Origin: Hanstruepera ponticola
Lineage (GTDB): Bacteria; Bacteroidota; Bacteroidia; Flavobacteriales; Flavobacteriaceae
Direction of reading: 5' to 3'
Assembly: GCF_012931685.1 (NCBI RefSeq)
Contig: NZ_JABANC010000001.1
Location: 124,001-188,000, forward strand
Length of the DNA stretch: 64,000 nucleotides
Shown: positions 16,608 to 31,101 of the stretch, one piece after another
Numbering within the stretch: the stretch's first letter is position 1
Layout: every line of letters starts with the position of its first letter
Translations under genes and position numbers: made by a program
Notes under the pieces: generated by a model
What the model was told of the DNA's origin: nothing
Databases searched by the model: none
What the model saw: the letters and a program-made list of their open reading frames with translations, nothing else

Positions 16608-17693
16608 CTAATTATCATTAATAATCTTCTCCTGATGATTTATAGATTCTTGATGAACGGCTTTAAAGACTCGCAGAATAAATTCCTCACTCAAGTTTTT
16701 TTCTTCACCTTGTAAAATCATTTTTCCTAAAATTTCATTCCAACGTTTTGTTTGTAATACTGCCACATTATGGGCTTTTTTAAGTGTCCCAATCTCATCG
16801 GCTACATTCATACGTTTACCAAGAATTTCTATAAGTTGATGATCAATGACATCAATTTGCGTTCTTAACGTATTGATTTTATTCTTGAATTCGGTTGCCT
16901 CCCCTGTTTCTTTTCTAATTTTTAAATCGTCCATAAACTGAATAAGGGTATTTGGTGTGATTTGCTGTGCAGCATCACTCCAAGCATTATCAGGATCAAA
17001 ATGTGTTTCGACCATTAAACCATCATAGTTTAAGTCTAATGCTGTTTGGCACAAATCAAAAATAATATCGCGACGACCAGCAATGTGTGAAGGATCCAAT
17101 ATAAGTGGTAAATCCGGAAAACGATTTTGTAAATCTATTGGTAATTGCCATTCAGGGTTATTTCTGTAACGCGTTTTTTCATAGGTAGAAAACCCTCTGT
17201 GGATAACCCCTAAGTTTTTCACATTAGCCGTATAAAATCGTTCAACAGCTCCTAACCATAGTGCTAAATCTGGATTAACTGGGTTTTTAACTAAAACGGT
17301 TTTATCTGTGCCTTTTAAGGCTTCAGCTATTTCCTGTACAATAAATGGACTTACCGTCGTTCTAGCGCCAATCCACAAAATATCAACATCATGTTGCAAG
17401 GCTAAATCGACATGGTTGGCATTAGCTACCTCGGTAGTGATAAGCATACCTGTTTCTTCTTTTGCTTTTTGCAACCATTTTAGACCTAAAGCACCAACAC
17501 CTTCAAAATTTCCTGGTCGTGTTCTGGGTTTCCAAATACCAGCTCGCAGTACAGTTGCATCACTATCTTTTAATTGATGAGCAATTTTTAAAACTTGCCC
17601 TTCGGTTTCTGCACTACAAGGCCCTGCAATTACCAATGGATGTTCTAATCCAAATTTATCTAACCACGTTCGTAATTCTCTTTTATTTTCCAT
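16608..17693 (-). CDS. bifunctional DAHP synthase / chorismate mutase type II
   Basis: Fusion of two steps of aromatic biosynthesis; 361 aa. The N-terminal part (about 1-265) is a KDO8P-like type I DAHP synthase: LVIAGPCSAETEGQVL, VLRAGIWKPRTRPGNFEG, LVKNPVNPDLALWLGA and LILDPSHIAGRRD bind PEP, phosphate and metal. The C-terminal part (about 272-361) is an AroQ chorismate mutase helix bundle: NTLRTQIDVIDHQLIEILGK, RMNVADEIGTLKK. This domain order is typical of Bacteroidota, where the mutase domain can also confer feedback control on DAHP synthase (known for related fusions). It lies between tyrA and rsgA in the operon. Confidence 0.95.
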   Translation of the reverse strand: MENKRELRTWLDKFGLEHPLVIAGPCSAETEGQVLKIAHQLKDSDATVLRAGIWKPRTRPGNFEGVGALGLKWLQKAKEETGMLITTEVANANHVDLALQHDVDILWIGARTTVSPFIVQEIAEALKGTDKTVLVKNPVNPDLALWLGAVERFYTANVKNLGVIHRGFSTYEKTRYRNNPEWQLPIDLQNRFPDLPLILDPSHIAGRRDIIFDLCQTALDLNYDGLMVETHFDPDNAWSDAAQQITPNTLIQFMDDLKIRKETGEATEFKNKINTLRTQIDVIDHQLIEILGKRMNVADEIGTLKKAHNVAVLQTKRWNEILGKMILQGEEKNLSEEFILRVFKAVHQESINHQEKIINDN

Positions 17694-17702
17694 AGTCTTT
17701 TT

Positions 17703-18554
17703 TTATTCTATTCCGTTTAAAATATCCTTAATATGATTGGTATTCTTCATTTCATTGCGAATCTCTTCAAAATTATCAGCTTTAATAAAATCCTTAAAAG
17801 CAGTTAGATTTTGAATATACTCTTCCAAGGTTTCAATGACATTTGCTTTGTTTTGTTTAAATATAGGTGTCCACATTTCTGGTGAGCTTTTTGCCAATCG
17901 TACTGTTGAAGCAAAACCACTTCCAGCTAAATCGAAAATATCGCGTTCATTCTTTTCTTTTTCAATTACAGTTTTCCCTAACATAAACGAACTGATATGA
18001 GATAAATGGGATACATAAGCAATATGTTTATCATGTGCTTCGGGATTCATATATCGAATACGCATGCCCATAATTTTAAAAATAGACAATGCCCGCTCTT
18101 GTAATTTAAATGCCGTTTTTTCCACTTCACATATTATGTTGGTCTTTCCCTTAAATAGGCCTTCCAATGCCGCTTTTGGACCAGAAAATTCGGTTCCGGC
18201 AATTGGATGCGTAGCCAAAAAATTTCGACGTTTAGGATGCTGCGCTACACTGTTACATATAGCTACTTTAGTAGAACCTGATTCCATTACTAGCGTGTCA
18301 TCTGAAACCCTATCCAAAACTTTTGGGAGCAATTCTACTGTGGCATCTACTGGAATGGACACAATGACAATATCGGCTTTGTCCAAGTCGTTAAAATCTG
18401 CTTTTTCGTCAATAACTCCAAGTGATATAGCTTCATCTAAATGTTTTACATTACTATCTATGCCGTAAATTATTAAATCGGGGTTAAGCTTTTTGACATC
18501 TTTCGCTATACTGCCTCCAATTAATCCAACGCCTATTATGTAAATATTCTTCAT
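17703..18554 (-). CDS. tyrA: prephenate dehydrogenase
   Basis: Oxidative decarboxylation of prephenate to 4-hydroxyphenylpyruvate (tyrosine branch), NAD-dependent. The Rossmann glycine motif VGLIGGSIAKDV is at the N-terminus and the acidic residue after beta2 is in YGIDSNVKH. The catalytic stretch THPIAGTEFSGPKAA and YVSHLSHISSFML carry the substrate His and Ser. At 283 aa it has no ACT domain, so feedback by tyrosine through that route is not expected. It sits nine bases before the DAHP synthase/chorismate mutase start and eight after the aminotransferase stop. Confidence 0.94.
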   Translation of the reverse strand: MKNIYIIGVGLIGGSIAKDVKKLNPDLIIYGIDSNVKHLDEAISLGVIDEKADFNDLDKADIVIVSIPVDATVELLPKVLDRVSDDTLVMESGSTKVAICNSVAQHPKRRNFLATHPIAGTEFSGPKAALEGLFKGKTNIICEVEKTAFKLQERALSIFKIMGMRIRYMNPEAHDKHIAYVSHLSHISSFMLGKTVIEKEKNERDIFDLAGSGFASTVRLAKSSPEMWTPIFKQNKANVIETLEEYIQNLTAFKDFIKADNFEEIRNEMKNTNHIKDILNGIE

Positions 18555-18561
18555 ACTTCTA

Positions 18562-19704
18562 TTAAATTCTGGCTAATGCTTCTTCTAAATCATCAGTGGT
18601 TGCACAAAGTGAAAAACGAATATAGCCTTCACCATTTGACCCAAAAATAGTTCCGGGTGCTACAAAAATGCTCTTGTCTTTTAATAATACATCTATAAAT
18701 TCCTCAGCTTTAACAAATGCAGGCAATTTGGCCCAAACAAACATCCCTGAACTGTTTTTATCATATGTACAATTAAGTGCATTGGCAATTTTCCACACTA
18801 TTTCTCGGCGTTGTTCATAGACATTATTTAGACTAACATACCATAATTTAGTGCATTTAAGAGCTTCTACCGCACCTTTTTGAACACCATAAAACATACC
18901 AGAATCCATGTTGCTTTTTACTTTTAAAATGGCATTAATGAATTCTGATTTCCCCAATACCATTCCTACACGCCATCCGGCCATATTAAACGTTTTGCTT
19001 AATGAATTTAACTCTAAACAAACATCTTTTGCACCTGAAACACCTAATAAACTTTTCGGTTCATTATTGAGAATAAAACTGTAAGGATTATCATTAACAA
19101 TTAAAATGTTATGCCGTTTTGCAAAAGCCACCAATCTGATAAAAAAGGCTTCATTTGCTTTGGCTCCTGTTGGCATGTGCGGGTAATTAACCCACATGAG
19201 TTTAACTTTTGACAAATCTTGATTCTCCAAAGCCTCTATGTCTGGCAACCAATTATTATATTCTATCAAATCGTAATAAACTGGTTTTGCTCCAATAAGC
19301 TTAGTAACCGAAGTGTAGGTTGGGTATCCTGGATTTGGGATAAGCACTTCATCTCCTTCATTTAAAAAAGCCATAGAAATGTGCATAATACCTTCTTTAC
19401 TTCCCATTAATGGTAATACTTCGGTCGATGGACTTAAATACACATCAAACACATCACGATAAAAAGCGACTATTGCTTCACGTAATTCAGGTAAACCTTG
19501 ATAGCTTTGATATTTATGAGCTTGCTCACCACTTAATCCCTCAACTAAAGCTGAAATTACTTTTTGGGGTGGCATTAAATCTGGGCTACCTATACCTAAA
19601 TTAATTATGGGCTTACCACTAGCTTTCAAAAAATTAACTTCTCGTAATTTTTTTGAAAAATAGTATTCCTCAACATGTTCTAGTCGTTTTGCAAATTCAA
19701 TCAT
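18562..19704 (-). CDS. class I PLP-dependent aminotransferase, probably aromatic
   Basis: Fold type I aminotransferase of 380 aa. The PLP Schiff-base lysine is in ELNSLSKTFNMAGWRVGM (about residue 235); LGIGSPDLMPPQ, NPGYPTYTSV, WVNYPHMPTGA and the C-terminal Arg in YIRFSLCATTDD are family motifs. Position between pheA and tyrA in the aromatic operon suggests transamination of phenylpyruvate and 4-hydroxyphenylpyruvate; substrate is inferred from context, since this family also includes LL-diaminopimelate and aspartate enzymes. Its start ATG overlaps the pheA stop by four bases. Confidence 0.88.
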   Translation of the reverse strand: MIEFAKRLEHVEEYYFSKKLREVNFLKASGKPIINLGIGSPDLMPPQKVISALVEGLSGEQAHKYQSYQGLPELREAIVAFYRDVFDVYLSPSTEVLPLMGSKEGIMHISMAFLNEGDEVLIPNPGYPTYTSVTKLIGAKPVYYDLIEYNNWLPDIEALENQDLSKVKLMWVNYPHMPTGAKANEAFFIRLVAFAKRHNILIVNDNPYSFILNNEPKSLLGVSGAKDVCLELNSLSKTFNMAGWRVGMVLGKSEFINAILKVKSNMDSGMFYGVQKGAVEALKCTKLWYVSLNNVYEQRREIVWKIANALNCTYDKNSSGMFVWAKLPAFVKAEEFIDVLLKDKSIFVAPGTIFGSNGEGYIRFSLCATTDDLEEALARI

Positions 19705-20528
19705 GGTTTTGCATTTTTATATTCTCCCAATATCTTAAATTCTTCAGTCATAATTTCCATAATGGTTTTGGCTTTTTCAAAGTTCTTATAATTATCAAAA
19801 GTGACATCTATGAAAAAAGCATACTTCCACGGTGTTTCAATTTTAGGAAGTGATTGTATTTTGGTTAAATTTAATTGACAATCACTCATTACATTCAACA
19901 TAGCCGCTAAACTCCCACGTTTGTGTTCCAATTCAAACTTCAATGACGCCTTATTGATTGCTGATTGCGTAATTTCATGGTTTTCTTTTTTTACAACTAC
20001 AAATCGGGTTTCATTATGTTTAATGGTTTGAATACTTTCAGAGATAATATTTAAACCATACAATTCAGAAGCTAATTGACTACCCAACGCAGCTATTTTA
20101 AAGGTTTTAGTACGTGCAATACGTTTAGCAACTTCAGCCGTATCGGCATCTTCCACTATTTTAATATGTGGATACTGTTTAAAAAATTCTTTGCATTGCA
20201 GCAACGCCATTGGGTGCGAATGCACCTCTTCTATATCTTCTATTAATTGATTAGGTAATGCCATTAAATGATGTTGAATATCCAAATAATACTCACCTAC
20301 AACGTGCAAATTATTAGTATCTAATAATGCATAATTTGGTATAATTGAACCTGCAATTGAATTCTCTAATGCCATGACAACAGCATCTACATCATCACAC
20401 AAGAGACTTTGGACTGTTTTATCAAAAGTCAGATACTCACGTATATTAATGTGATCACCAAAATAGTTATTGGCAACAATATGGTGAAATGAGCCTTTTA
20501 CGCCTTGTATAGCAACCGATTTAATCAT
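19701..20528 (-). CDS. pheA: prephenate dehydratase with ACT domain
   Basis: Converts prephenate to phenylpyruvate, committing to phenylalanine; 275 aa. The catalytic domain (about 1-180) shows IQGVKGSFHHIVANNYFG, AVVMALENSIAGSI and the conserved NETRFVVV (the TRF motif). The C-terminal ACT domain (about 193-275, FELEHKRGSLAAMLNVMSD, then NLTKIQSLPKIETPWKYAFF) should bind phenylalanine for feedback inhibition. No chorismate mutase domain is present here; that activity is in the aroG/aroQ fusion downstream. It is the first structural gene of the operon and directly follows a leader-peptide attenuator, with only two bases between the terminator U-tract and the ATG. Confidence 0.95.
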   Translation of the reverse strand: MIKSVAIQGVKGSFHHIVANNYFGDHINIREYLTFDKTVQSLLCDDVDAVVMALENSIAGSIIPNYALLDTNNLHVVGEYYLDIQHHLMALPNQLIEDIEEVHSHPMALLQCKEFFKQYPHIKIVEDADTAEVAKRIARTKTFKIAALGSQLASELYGLNIISESIQTIKHNETRFVVVKKENHEITQSAINKASLKFELEHKRGSLAAMLNVMSDCQLNLTKIQSLPKIETPWKYAFFIDVTFDNYKNFEKAKTIMEIMTEEFKILGEYKNAKP

Positions 20529-20530
20529 AT

Positions 20531-20560
20531 AAAAAAAAAGTCCCGATTTTCATCGAGACT
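20531..20560 (-). terminator. attenuator terminator in the pheA leader
   Basis: On minus-strand RNA, AGUCUCGAU (20560-20552), tetraloop GAAA, AUCGGGACU (20547-20539), then nine U (to 20531). The stem has nine pairs including one U-G wobble. It ends two bases before the pheA start codon, so pheA can be expressed only if this hairpin fails to form. It competes with the antiterminator for the GUCUCG arm. Confidence 0.9.
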
Positions 20561-20602
20561 TATAGTTATAGTTTATATTAAAATTACACATACAACGTCT
20601 CG
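20554..20602 (-). promoter_or_regulatory. antiterminator of the pheA leader
   Basis: On minus-strand RNA, CGAGACGUUGUA (20602-20591) can pair with UAUAAGUCUCG (20564-20554): six contiguous pairs CGAGAC/GUCUCG, then a bulged G and five more pairs (one G-U). The 3' arm contains the first six bases of the terminator's 5' arm after its A, so the two structures exclude each other. The 5' arm lies in codons 21-25 of the leader peptide, where a ribosome at the stop codon would cover it and a ribosome stalled at the aromatic codons would leave it free. Confidence 0.75.
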
Positions 20603-20664
20603 TTTCCTTTGCTAAAAAAGAAATAGTACCAGTTATAATATGTAAAATTTGTATTTGCGTTCAT
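20584..20664 (-). CDS. aromatic-rich leader peptide of the pheA operon
   Basis: A 26-codon reading frame from ATG 20664 to TAA 20584. Codons 7-17 read FTYYNWYYFFF: eight of the nine residues 9-17 are Tyr, Trp or Phe (YYNWYYFFF). Such a run, followed by competing antiterminator and terminator hairpins and then pheA, is the classic arrangement of ribosome-mediated attenuation (PheL and TrpL in enteric bacteria). Starved ribosomes would stall on these codons and favour antitermination. The frame stays open upstream to an earlier ATG at 20784, but the candidate promoter at 20705-20675 would start RNA a few bases before 20664. That makes the short form the natural leader. The peptide itself probably has no other function. 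Confidence 0.85.
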   Translation of the reverse strand: MNANTNFTYYNWYYFFFSKGNETLYV

Positions 20665-20674
20665 AATTGAATAG

Positions 20675-20705
20675 CTAAAGTAATTAATAAAATGAAAAAA
20701 CAAAA
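20675..20705 (-). promoter_or_regulatory. candidate promoter of the pheA leader and aromatic operon
   Basis: On the minus strand, TTTTG (20705-20701), an 18-bp spacer and TACTTTAG (20682-20675), one mismatch from TAnnTTTG. Transcription would begin about 5 bases before the leader-peptide ATG. Confidence 0.5.
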
Positions 20706-20793: not shown

Positions 20794-21690
20794 ATGTCTA
20801 TATCAGTAGAAAATATCAGTAAGCTTTATGGCGAGCAAAAAGCGCTTAATAATATATCGTTTAAGGTAAATAAGCCAGAAATTGTTGGCTTTTTGGGACC
20901 TAATGGAGCTGGGAAGTCAACTATGATGAAAATATTGACGACTTATATTGAACCAACTGAAGGAGAAGCCAAGGTTAATGATTTTGATATTGCTTTACAA
21001 AAACAACAGGTCCAACTGAGTGTAGGTTATCTACCAGAGCACAACCCCTTGTATTTAGAACAATATGTAAGAGAATATTTAGCATTTAATGCACAAGTTT
21101 ATGGCGTAAACAAAACACGAATTGAAGAGGTTATTGAATTAACAGGATTGACTCCTGAAGCCCATAAAAAAATTGGGCAACTTTCTAAAGGTTATAGGCA
21201 ACGTGTTGGGCTGGCCAATGCCCTATTGCATAATCCGGATGTTCTTATTTTAGATGAACCAACAACTGGATTGGATCCAAACCAATTGGTTGATATTAGG
21301 AATTTAATTAAGTCTATTGGTAAAGAAAAAACCGTGTTTTTATCAACCCACATTATGCAAGAAGTTGAGGCCATGTGCGACCGCGTCATCATTATTAATA
21401 AAGGTGAAATTGTTGCCAACAAAACACTTAAAGAATTACGAGACGATAAGGAACAAGTCGTTGTGGTTGAATTTGATTATCGCGTGGAAGATGCCTTTTT
21501 ATTAAAACTTCCAAAAGTTAAGCAAGTGGTAAATACGCATGACTTTGTTTACGAAATCACCTTTACAACAACTGATGATATGCGTTCTCATGTTTTTGAT
21601 TTTGCACATGATAATCAGTTAAAAATTCTTCAACTGAATCAAAAAAATGCTAGTTTGGAAAGTATGTTTAGGGAGTTGACAAACCAATAG
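20794..21690 (+). CDS. gldA: gliding motility ABC transporter ATP-binding protein GldA
   Basis: ATPase subunit of the GldA-GldF-GldG ABC transporter needed for gliding in Flavobacterium; 298 aa. It has Walker A GFLGPNGAGKSTMMKIL (about 31-47), the signature LSKGYRQRVGLANALL (about 133-148) and Walker B with catalytic Glu in DVLILDEPTTGLDPNQLVD; the switch His is in FLSTHIMQEVE. The C-terminal 75 residues are the extension common to export-type ATPases of this clade. The membrane partners GldF and GldG are not in the window. The symbol depends on overall resemblance to GldA; other ABC export ATPases are close. Confidence 0.82.
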   Translation: MSISVENISKLYGEQKALNNISFKVNKPEIVGFLGPNGAGKSTMMKILTTYIEPTEGEAKVNDFDIALQKQQVQLSVGYLPEHNPLYLEQYVREYLAFNAQVYGVNKTRIEEVIELTGLTPEAHKKIGQLSKGYRQRVGLANALLHNPDVLILDEPTTGLDPNQLVDIRNLIKSIGKEKTVFLSTHIMQEVEAMCDRVIIINKGEIVANKTLKELRDDKEQVVVVEFDYRVEDAFLLKLPKVKQVVNTHDFVYEITFTTTDDMRSHVFDFAHDNQLKILQLNQKNASLESMFRELTNQ

Positions 21691-30690: not shown

Positions 30691-30741
30691 TTTATAGTAT
30701 TTAAAATGCCATCATGAAAAGAGAGAGTAAATCATTCTCGA

Positions 30742-30843
30742 GTCATCTTTCCCAAATTACTTGGGTAGAATTTAGCACCTTCTTTAAAAATAAAGGGTTG
30801 CTAAGGCTTCAACGGGTCTATTCCCTCTGCCTTTCGTGATAAC
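30742..30843 (-). ncRNA. SAM-I riboswitch (S box) of the metH operon
   Basis: Minus-strand RNA from 30843 to 30742. P1 is formed by GUUAUC (30843-30838) and GAUGAC (30747-30742), with one U-G. Hallmark conserved words occur in order: AGAGGGA, GACCC, UGAAGCC, AGCAACC and GGUGCUAAAUUC, followed by the P4 hairpin CCCAA-GUAA-UUGGG. Binding of S-adenosylmethionine should lower expression of the metH genes. The 50 nt to the start codon hold only a weak GAGA/UCUC hairpin, so the expression platform is unclear. Confidence 0.93.
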
Positions 30844-30873
30844 AAATCAGTAAAATTTTGAACTTCTTGAAAA

Positions 30874-30962: not shown

Positions 30963-30978
30963 CCAAACAAATATTACA

Positions 30979-31026
30979 GAGGAAAAATTTGTCTGATTGC
31001 AACCTCAATAAAAAATGCTAAAGCAG
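30979..31026 (+). ncRNA. candidate SAM-II riboswitch of metK
   Basis: A compact element with the SAM-II (SAM-alpha) layout. P1 GAGG (30979-30982) pairs with CCTC (31003-31006); the loop contains the conserved ATTTG...GATTGCA segment (30988-31001); a 3' tail AATAAAAAATGCTAAAGCAG (31007-31026) follows. The tail's CAG (31024-31026) can form the H-type pseudoknot with CTG (30993-30995) in the loop. The ATTGCA and GCTAAAG words are the SAM-binding features I recognise from the class. P1 has only four pairs. It was recognised by eye; a covariance-model search would settle it. Downstream metK makes SAM, so feedback regulation fits. Confidence 0.7.
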
Positions 31027-31101
31027 TTTCAATTACTACTCTAGCAGTCTGCAATTTCATATTTTTTCCTTAATTTCAACCAAATTAAAAATTTAGGATT
31101 T

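Follow-up and report, generated by a model that had tools for sequence, protein, structure and literature searches.

What decides whether the operon that begins with pheA is transcribed in Hanstruepera ponticola, and what part does the short reading frame in front of it play? In the window, by which we mean the whole stretch of 64,000 nucleotides that was analysed, pheA for prephenate dehydratase (19701-20528, minus strand) lies divergently from gldA (20794-21690, plus strand). It is followed on its own strand, at intervals of no more than 9 bases, by an aminotransferase whose substrate is not settled (18562-19704), tyrA for prephenate dehydrogenase (17703-18554), and a DAHP synthase (16608-17693) whose C-terminal part resembles chorismate mutase, with chorismate mutase models matching residues about 270-358. 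Curated NCBIfam cut-offs were passed by tyrA (PRK08507, 391 bits, cut-off 295) and gldA (TIGR03522) only; the other genes are named after their best match below the cut-off, PRK11898 for pheA (189 bits, cut-off 219), PRK09276, LL-diaminopimelate aminotransferase, for the aminotransferase (410 bits, cut-off 507), and PRK12595 for the DAHP synthase (197 bits, cut-off 279). From gldA towards pheA the order is a promoter, a frame of 26 codons, CGAGACGUUGUA, UAUAAGUCUCG, AUCGGGACU, a T run, two bases, and the ATG of pheA. The terminator precedes all four genes and therefore stands before the route to Phe and Tyr. Elsewhere in the window are two SAM riboswitches about 130 nt apart, RF00162 (84.2 bits, 30740-30845, minus strand) and RF01726, SAM-II long loop (68.8 bits, 30973-31031, plus strand). 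As they are of two classes and on opposite strands, two divergent transcripts seem to be controlled by unrelated SAM sensors.

The frame, MNANTNFTYYNWYYFFFSKGNETLYV, runs on the minus strand from the ATG at 20664-20662 to a stop codon that ends at 20584, and its regulatory codons 9-17 read YYNWYYFFF, just as an earlier sequence-only reading of this DNA had described it. Upstream, where that reading saw a promoter-like sequence, there is a Bacteroidota-type promoter (20675-20704, minus strand) with TTTG at 20704-20701 and a TAnnTTWG box, TACTTTAG, at 20682-20675, and transcription of the leader would start about 4-8 nt before the leader ATG. Folding showed that the Phe codons form a hairpin with the next codons, H1 (UUUCUUUU-UUAGC-AAAGGAAA, 20603-20623, minus strand), which had gone unmentioned. 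H1 lies directly 5' of S1, the 5' arm of the antiterminator (CGAGAC, 20597-20602, minus strand), identified from sequence, fold, and covariation and extended by UUGUA (20595-20591) past a bulged G. The shared arm S2 (20552-20564, minus strand) pairs through UAUAAGUCUCG with S1 and through AAGUCUCGAU with S3, the 3' arm of the terminator (AUCGGGACUU, 20538-20547, minus strand), known from the S2:S3 covariation. Nine T (20531-20539, minus strand) make up the U-tract, and the run does end two bases before the pheA ATG at 20528.

The two hairpins exclude one another, as had been proposed. The antiterminator consists of 11 pairs between 20602-20591 and 20564-20554, and the only correction needed is the bulged G at 20596. 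The terminator, AGUCUCGAU-GAAA-AUCGGGACU (20560-20539), has the nine pairs ascribed to it and a tenth, A20561:U20538, also forms, but the nine U said to follow the stem do not all do so: the run spans 20539-20531, so one or two T are inside the stem and only 7-8 come after it. The folding energy of the 10-pair terminator is -13.0 kcal/mol as compared to -8.3 kcal/mol for the antiterminator helix alone, which means that the weaker antiterminator works only if it is formed first.

The comparisons presented below make it very probable that this is a ribosome-mediated transcription attenuator which senses charged tRNA-Phe and tRNA-Tyr, perhaps also tRNA-Trp, and controls pheA, the aminotransferase gene, tyrA, and the DAHP synthase gene. 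The interpretation of the sequence-only reading was thus largely right. The locus has a frame with codons for the product, a terminator before the first gene, an antiterminator that has one arm in common with this terminator, and a geometry that suits the ribosome. When Phe and Tyr are plentiful, the ribosome would reach the leader stop codon and cover S1, S2 would pair with S3, and transcription would end in the U-tract before pheA. When they are short, the ribosome would halt on codons 9-17 with its front edge just upstream of S1, which would then be free to pair with S2, and with no terminator formed the operon would be read. An untranslated leader, in which no hairpin that hides S1 was found, would be read through too. 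Judged by comparison between relatives, the frame, its codons, both helices, the shared arm, and the spacing are established, and we infer that the pheA leader responds to amino acids.

Relatives of pheA were found in 5/5 genomes of the genus and, at the level of the family, in 268 of the 299 genomes sampled. We analysed 133 upstream regions from the family, which belong to the better-scoring matches (33 loci and 100 further among those listed), and counted as an aromatic leader any frame that starts with ATG, is 10-45 codons long, and has 6 or more aromatic residues in a stretch of 9. Such a frame is present in 132 of the 133 regions, as compared to 3/133 reverse strands and 70/2660 dinucleotide shuffles (2.6%), and the single miss, L021, is cut off by a contig end. 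The promoter is conserved in the family as well: in 122/131 the 45 nt before the leader ATG contain a TAnnTTWG box, against 8% in shuffled sequences; the -7 box has been given as TAnnTTTG (PMC9723704). To offset the bias to close relatives we added 30 genomes with low-scoring pheA, using at least 5 aromatic residues in 9 as the criterion. All but one, L229, which lacks a leader, had leader and terminator together, and 27 of these 29 had a good competing arm too; L226 and L242 were the two with no good S1. In other orders of the class, 27 pheA loci were analysed: 17 with leader and terminator, three (L283, L285, and L292) with a leader but no clear terminator, and seven with no aromatic leader.

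When 246 genomes of the order were searched with a covariance model of the pheA leader, 45 gave matches, and 36 of the 45 belong to the family itself. The model is not sensitive: the leader before pheA in G178 (L243) escaped it. Of 21 among the model matches listed, 18 are located before pheA (families f1, f2, f13, and f15) and one before another gene. The matches L165 and L169 were rejected as leaders, these being chance hairpins at gene ends.

A terminator and a competing upstream arm could be observed in all 132 leaders with a frame, although the arms are poor in two, L044 and L129. The competing arm was searched for, and three controls were therefore needed: shuffled spacers, foreign cores, and an alignment based on position. 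A best arm score of at least 16 was reached by 99/132 leaders as compared to 88/1320 with shuffled spacers. A leader's own terminator core fits its arm better than cores of other types (mean 14.6 vs 10.7). The own type came top for 6/13 core types, the two largest among them; that it did not do so for the remaining seven is due in part to G-U pairs, which make the types less distinct, and to a poor choice of some cores. The alignments A1 and A2 contain 62 diverse leaders of the 132, with 3' ends set by the terminator finder, and A2 is a realignment from a start set by position only. Pairing in the 62 leaders of A2 amounts to 95.9% for S1:S2, where 5/6 pairs show two-sided changes, and to 99.8% for S2:S3, the best paired element, where 6/8 pairs do; sliding by one column lowers the pairing of both helices to 28-58%. 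The antiterminator was only 69% paired in A1 because MAFFT had shifted one subgroup by one base. The check suggested with the sequence-only reading, a conserved aromatic frame together with compensatory changes in both hairpins, thus turned out in its favour. Much of the two-sided change comes from a single position, where A-U has become G-C in 20 sequences, and probably represents few events. Further matched triples are rare and occur in L127 (GGAGCT/AGCTCC/GGGGCT), L097, and L113. Mean energies over the 132 leaders are -13.0 kcal/mol for the terminator hairpin and -13.1 for the whole S1-to-S2 stretch, with the terminator being the stronger in 61. In L060, L083, L087, and L010 the antiterminator takes in the 3' arm of H1 and continues into the loop of the terminator, with 13 pairs in L060, which implies that H1 and the antiterminator would compete there.

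The proposed geometry, where a stall frees S1 and a ribosome at the stop codon covers it, is conserved too. Counted from the first base of the final aromatic codon, S1 starts after 13-15 nt in 119/132 leaders. In 112/132 the stop codon follows the start of S1 by 10-16 nt, and in the others its position ranges from 11 nt upstream to 22 nt downstream of that start. With a footprint size taken from general knowledge, the first distance would place the front edge of a stalled ribosome just before S1, and the second would let a ribosome at the stop codon cover S1. The spacing is kept although S1 is read in different frames in the two largest subgroups, at offsets of 14 and 13, so that it is the RNA arm that is preserved and not the peptide behind the Phe run.

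In the four-segment leaders of enteric bacteria, a protector hairpin hides the antiterminator arm when the leader is untranslated. We searched 129 leaders for such a 1:2 hairpin. The upstream partners of S1 scored 0.86 per base as compared to 0.96 in shuffled sequences, and 0/129 reached the level that S2 meets in 95/129; as S1 was picked by its fit to S2, the comparison with shuffled sequences is the fair one. The sequence-only reading had seen the logic of enteric pheL/trpL in this leader. The attenuation logic stands, but no protector was found in these leaders to go with it, and readthrough of the pheA leader should therefore be expected when translation fails.

The Phe codons themselves may have a further role. 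TTC is the first Phe codon in 102 of 104 leaders that end in YFFF, against a background in which TTC makes up 12% of Phe codons (long frames, loci L001-L033) or 20% (all loci collected), and in the fold the C of this conserved TTC pairs with a G in the next codons. We compared the native folding energy of the H1 stretch with that of 200 synonymous versions per leader. The native mean was -3.88 vs -1.15 for the synonymous versions; 130/132 leaders beat the median of their synonymous versions and 55/132 were in the best 5%. The H1 of the window is unremarkable when taken alone, with rank 26 of 200. Two independent sets gave 25/29 better than the median and 15 in the best 5% (low-scoring pheA), and 10/17 and 7 (other orders, several leaders there being without any hairpin). 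In control leaders the same test gave 1/14 and 0 for hisG, and 2/12 and 0 for trpE. In two leaders it is the second Phe codon that carries the C, with a G at the corresponding position in each, but this is weak evidence since a G is common there in other leaders too. Avoidance of T runs as the cause of TTC found no support: ordinary FFF, taken from mechanical long frames of the collected loci and the window and not from checked genes, is TTT-TTT-TTT in 9/13 and TTC-TTT-TTT in 0/13. By analogy with enteric leaders, the likeliest role of H1 would be that of a pause hairpin, a gate that may keep polymerase and ribosome in step.

Leaders before other operons were compared with regard to their codons. 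The genome of the window has MTFIQLHHHHFHICTQAN before hisG (L247) and MKLIINNIWWWNFRKQLS before trpE (L301). hisG was found in 14/21 relatives and all 14 loci have a terminator and a leader with 3-5 His in 9 codons, and in the best 16 trpE-like loci 16/16 have 2-3 adjacent Trp codons and 15 a terminator; these His and Trp counts are given without a shuffle control. The hisG leader L247 had no Rfam match at gathering score. In several of 8 ilvD loci the leaders look rich in Ile/Leu/Val, an observation made with no chance level.

It was also possible to observe leaders before genes for biopterin-dependent aromatic amino acid hydroxylases, a family (PF00351) that includes the enzyme converting Phe to Tyr. 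G046 has a Tyr-rich leader, MKNLNNTYYYYPILTRRIGQ, before such a gene (L166, 597-1475; PF00351, 9.5e-44) and no pheA match. In G093 another Tyr-rich leader, MKTNRIYTIYMYTFYHRWRAR, was identified by eye (L188, 1341-1971) before a further gene of the hydroxylase family, which is truncated where the contig ends; G093 has no pheA match either, but this genome is only 82% complete. Each of the two leaders has a terminator and a matching upstream arm. Among loci with the short kind of hydroxylase, 3/5 have no such leader, and for long aromatic hydroxylases (about 590 aa) no convincing leader was seen in 18/25 loci, where the stretch included about 170 nt of their own coding sequence. In G325 (L164, 770-1039) two complete leader-terminator units with Phe but no Tyr codons are arranged in tandem before a prephenate dehydratase gene, and a narrow literature search found no paper on tandem attenuators. 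The prephenate dehydratase frame of L164 is only 185 aa, the PDT domain alone, and a further terminator-like hairpin is located just upstream.

Taken together, it is conceivable that the Phe codons (TTC-TTT-TTT) carry a second message, so that a selected H1 gate and the lack of a protector would make up a three-segment attenuator whose default state, when untranslated, is on, and that has been re-aimed to Tyr and doubled in G325. We put this forward tentatively, and give it somewhat less than even weight.

The same hairpins could also be set by a ribosome that is stalled by the nascent aromatic peptide and not by codon starvation, in the manner of the arrest peptide TnaC. The run YYNWFYFFF is strongly conserved among closer relatives, beyond what the counting of codons would need, and this speaks for an arrest peptide, but RNA hairpin H1 explains part of the conservation and the sequence changes further out (TKQYFWNGFYFYFFF, STFRFFGFFFF). 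Moreover, the residue follows the product, His, Trp, or Tyr before hydroxylases; this match, together with the tandem Phe leaders, fits codon sensing and is hard to reconcile with a fixed arrest peptide, which we consider to be quite improbable.

Two mutually exclusive hairpins would in themselves be sufficient for a trans-acting protein that responds to aromatic amino acids, or a riboswitch, to choose between, with the short frame being incidental. The leader matches no Rfam family at gathering score, only below threshold, and the conservation of the frame, the codons, and the spacing of S1, which is read in varying frames at a conserved distance from the codon run, is not what such control would lead one to expect; its probability appears very small. 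Smaller yet, close to negligible, is that of a constitutive upstream terminator accompanied by a chance frame. The terminator is indeed the best paired element, but its U-tract ends two bases before pheA, the antiterminator co-varies, and an aromatic frame is found in nearly every region as compared to only a few per cent of the shuffles.

The leader shares with enteric pheL the Phe-codon leader, the antiterminator, and the terminator before pheA, and hence part of its logic. It differs in the Tyr and Trp codons that are mixed in, in a host group that lacks Shine-Dalgarno sites (PMC9723704), and in that no protector was found, and for the latter reason the likeness is only partial. Surveys of attenuation, such as that of Lopatovskaya in 2010, may cover the phylum. 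The pheA leader does not reach the gathering cut-off of RF01859, Phe_leader (19.2, cut-off 55), and has no match at the gathering threshold to RF01692, the Bacteroid-trp leader listed in Table 1 of PMC2864571. RF01692 is also a Bacteroidetes leader RNA for amino-acid synthesis, but it has Trp codons before trpE, unlike the pheA leader, and the trpE leader of this same genome (L301) does match it with 63.3 bits against a cut-off of 49. Leader-like short frames have been noted in Bacteroides (PMC7366714).

No published description was found of the alternative pairing, the missing protector, or a codon hairpin before pheA, in a search that subscription journals and supplements were largely outside. 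The locus offers a complete and testable anatomy of amino-acid attenuation in bacteria without Shine-Dalgarno sites, with specific variations in the form of the codon hairpin, Tyr leaders before aromatic hydroxylases, and tandem leaders. As attenuation needs ribosome and polymerase to be in step, the Phe/Tyr, His, and Trp leaders of this genome are natural reporters of their coupling. The closest known system is that of Flavobacterium psychrophilum, from the same family (Flavobacteriaceae) and the same host group without Shine-Dalgarno sites, where a structured 5' element with no Rfam match was described upstream of the same gene, pheA, and in other genera too, in 2021, together with 'strong clues' for leader-peptide attenuation before amino-acid operons (PMC9723704). 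The section on F. psychrophilum contains neither a leader sequence nor an alternative pairing or a codon hairpin, and the paper's supplements may hold more (PMC9723704). A conserved pheA 5' element and leader-peptide attenuation have thus already been reported for that species, and what is possibly new here is H1, as a variant of this system.
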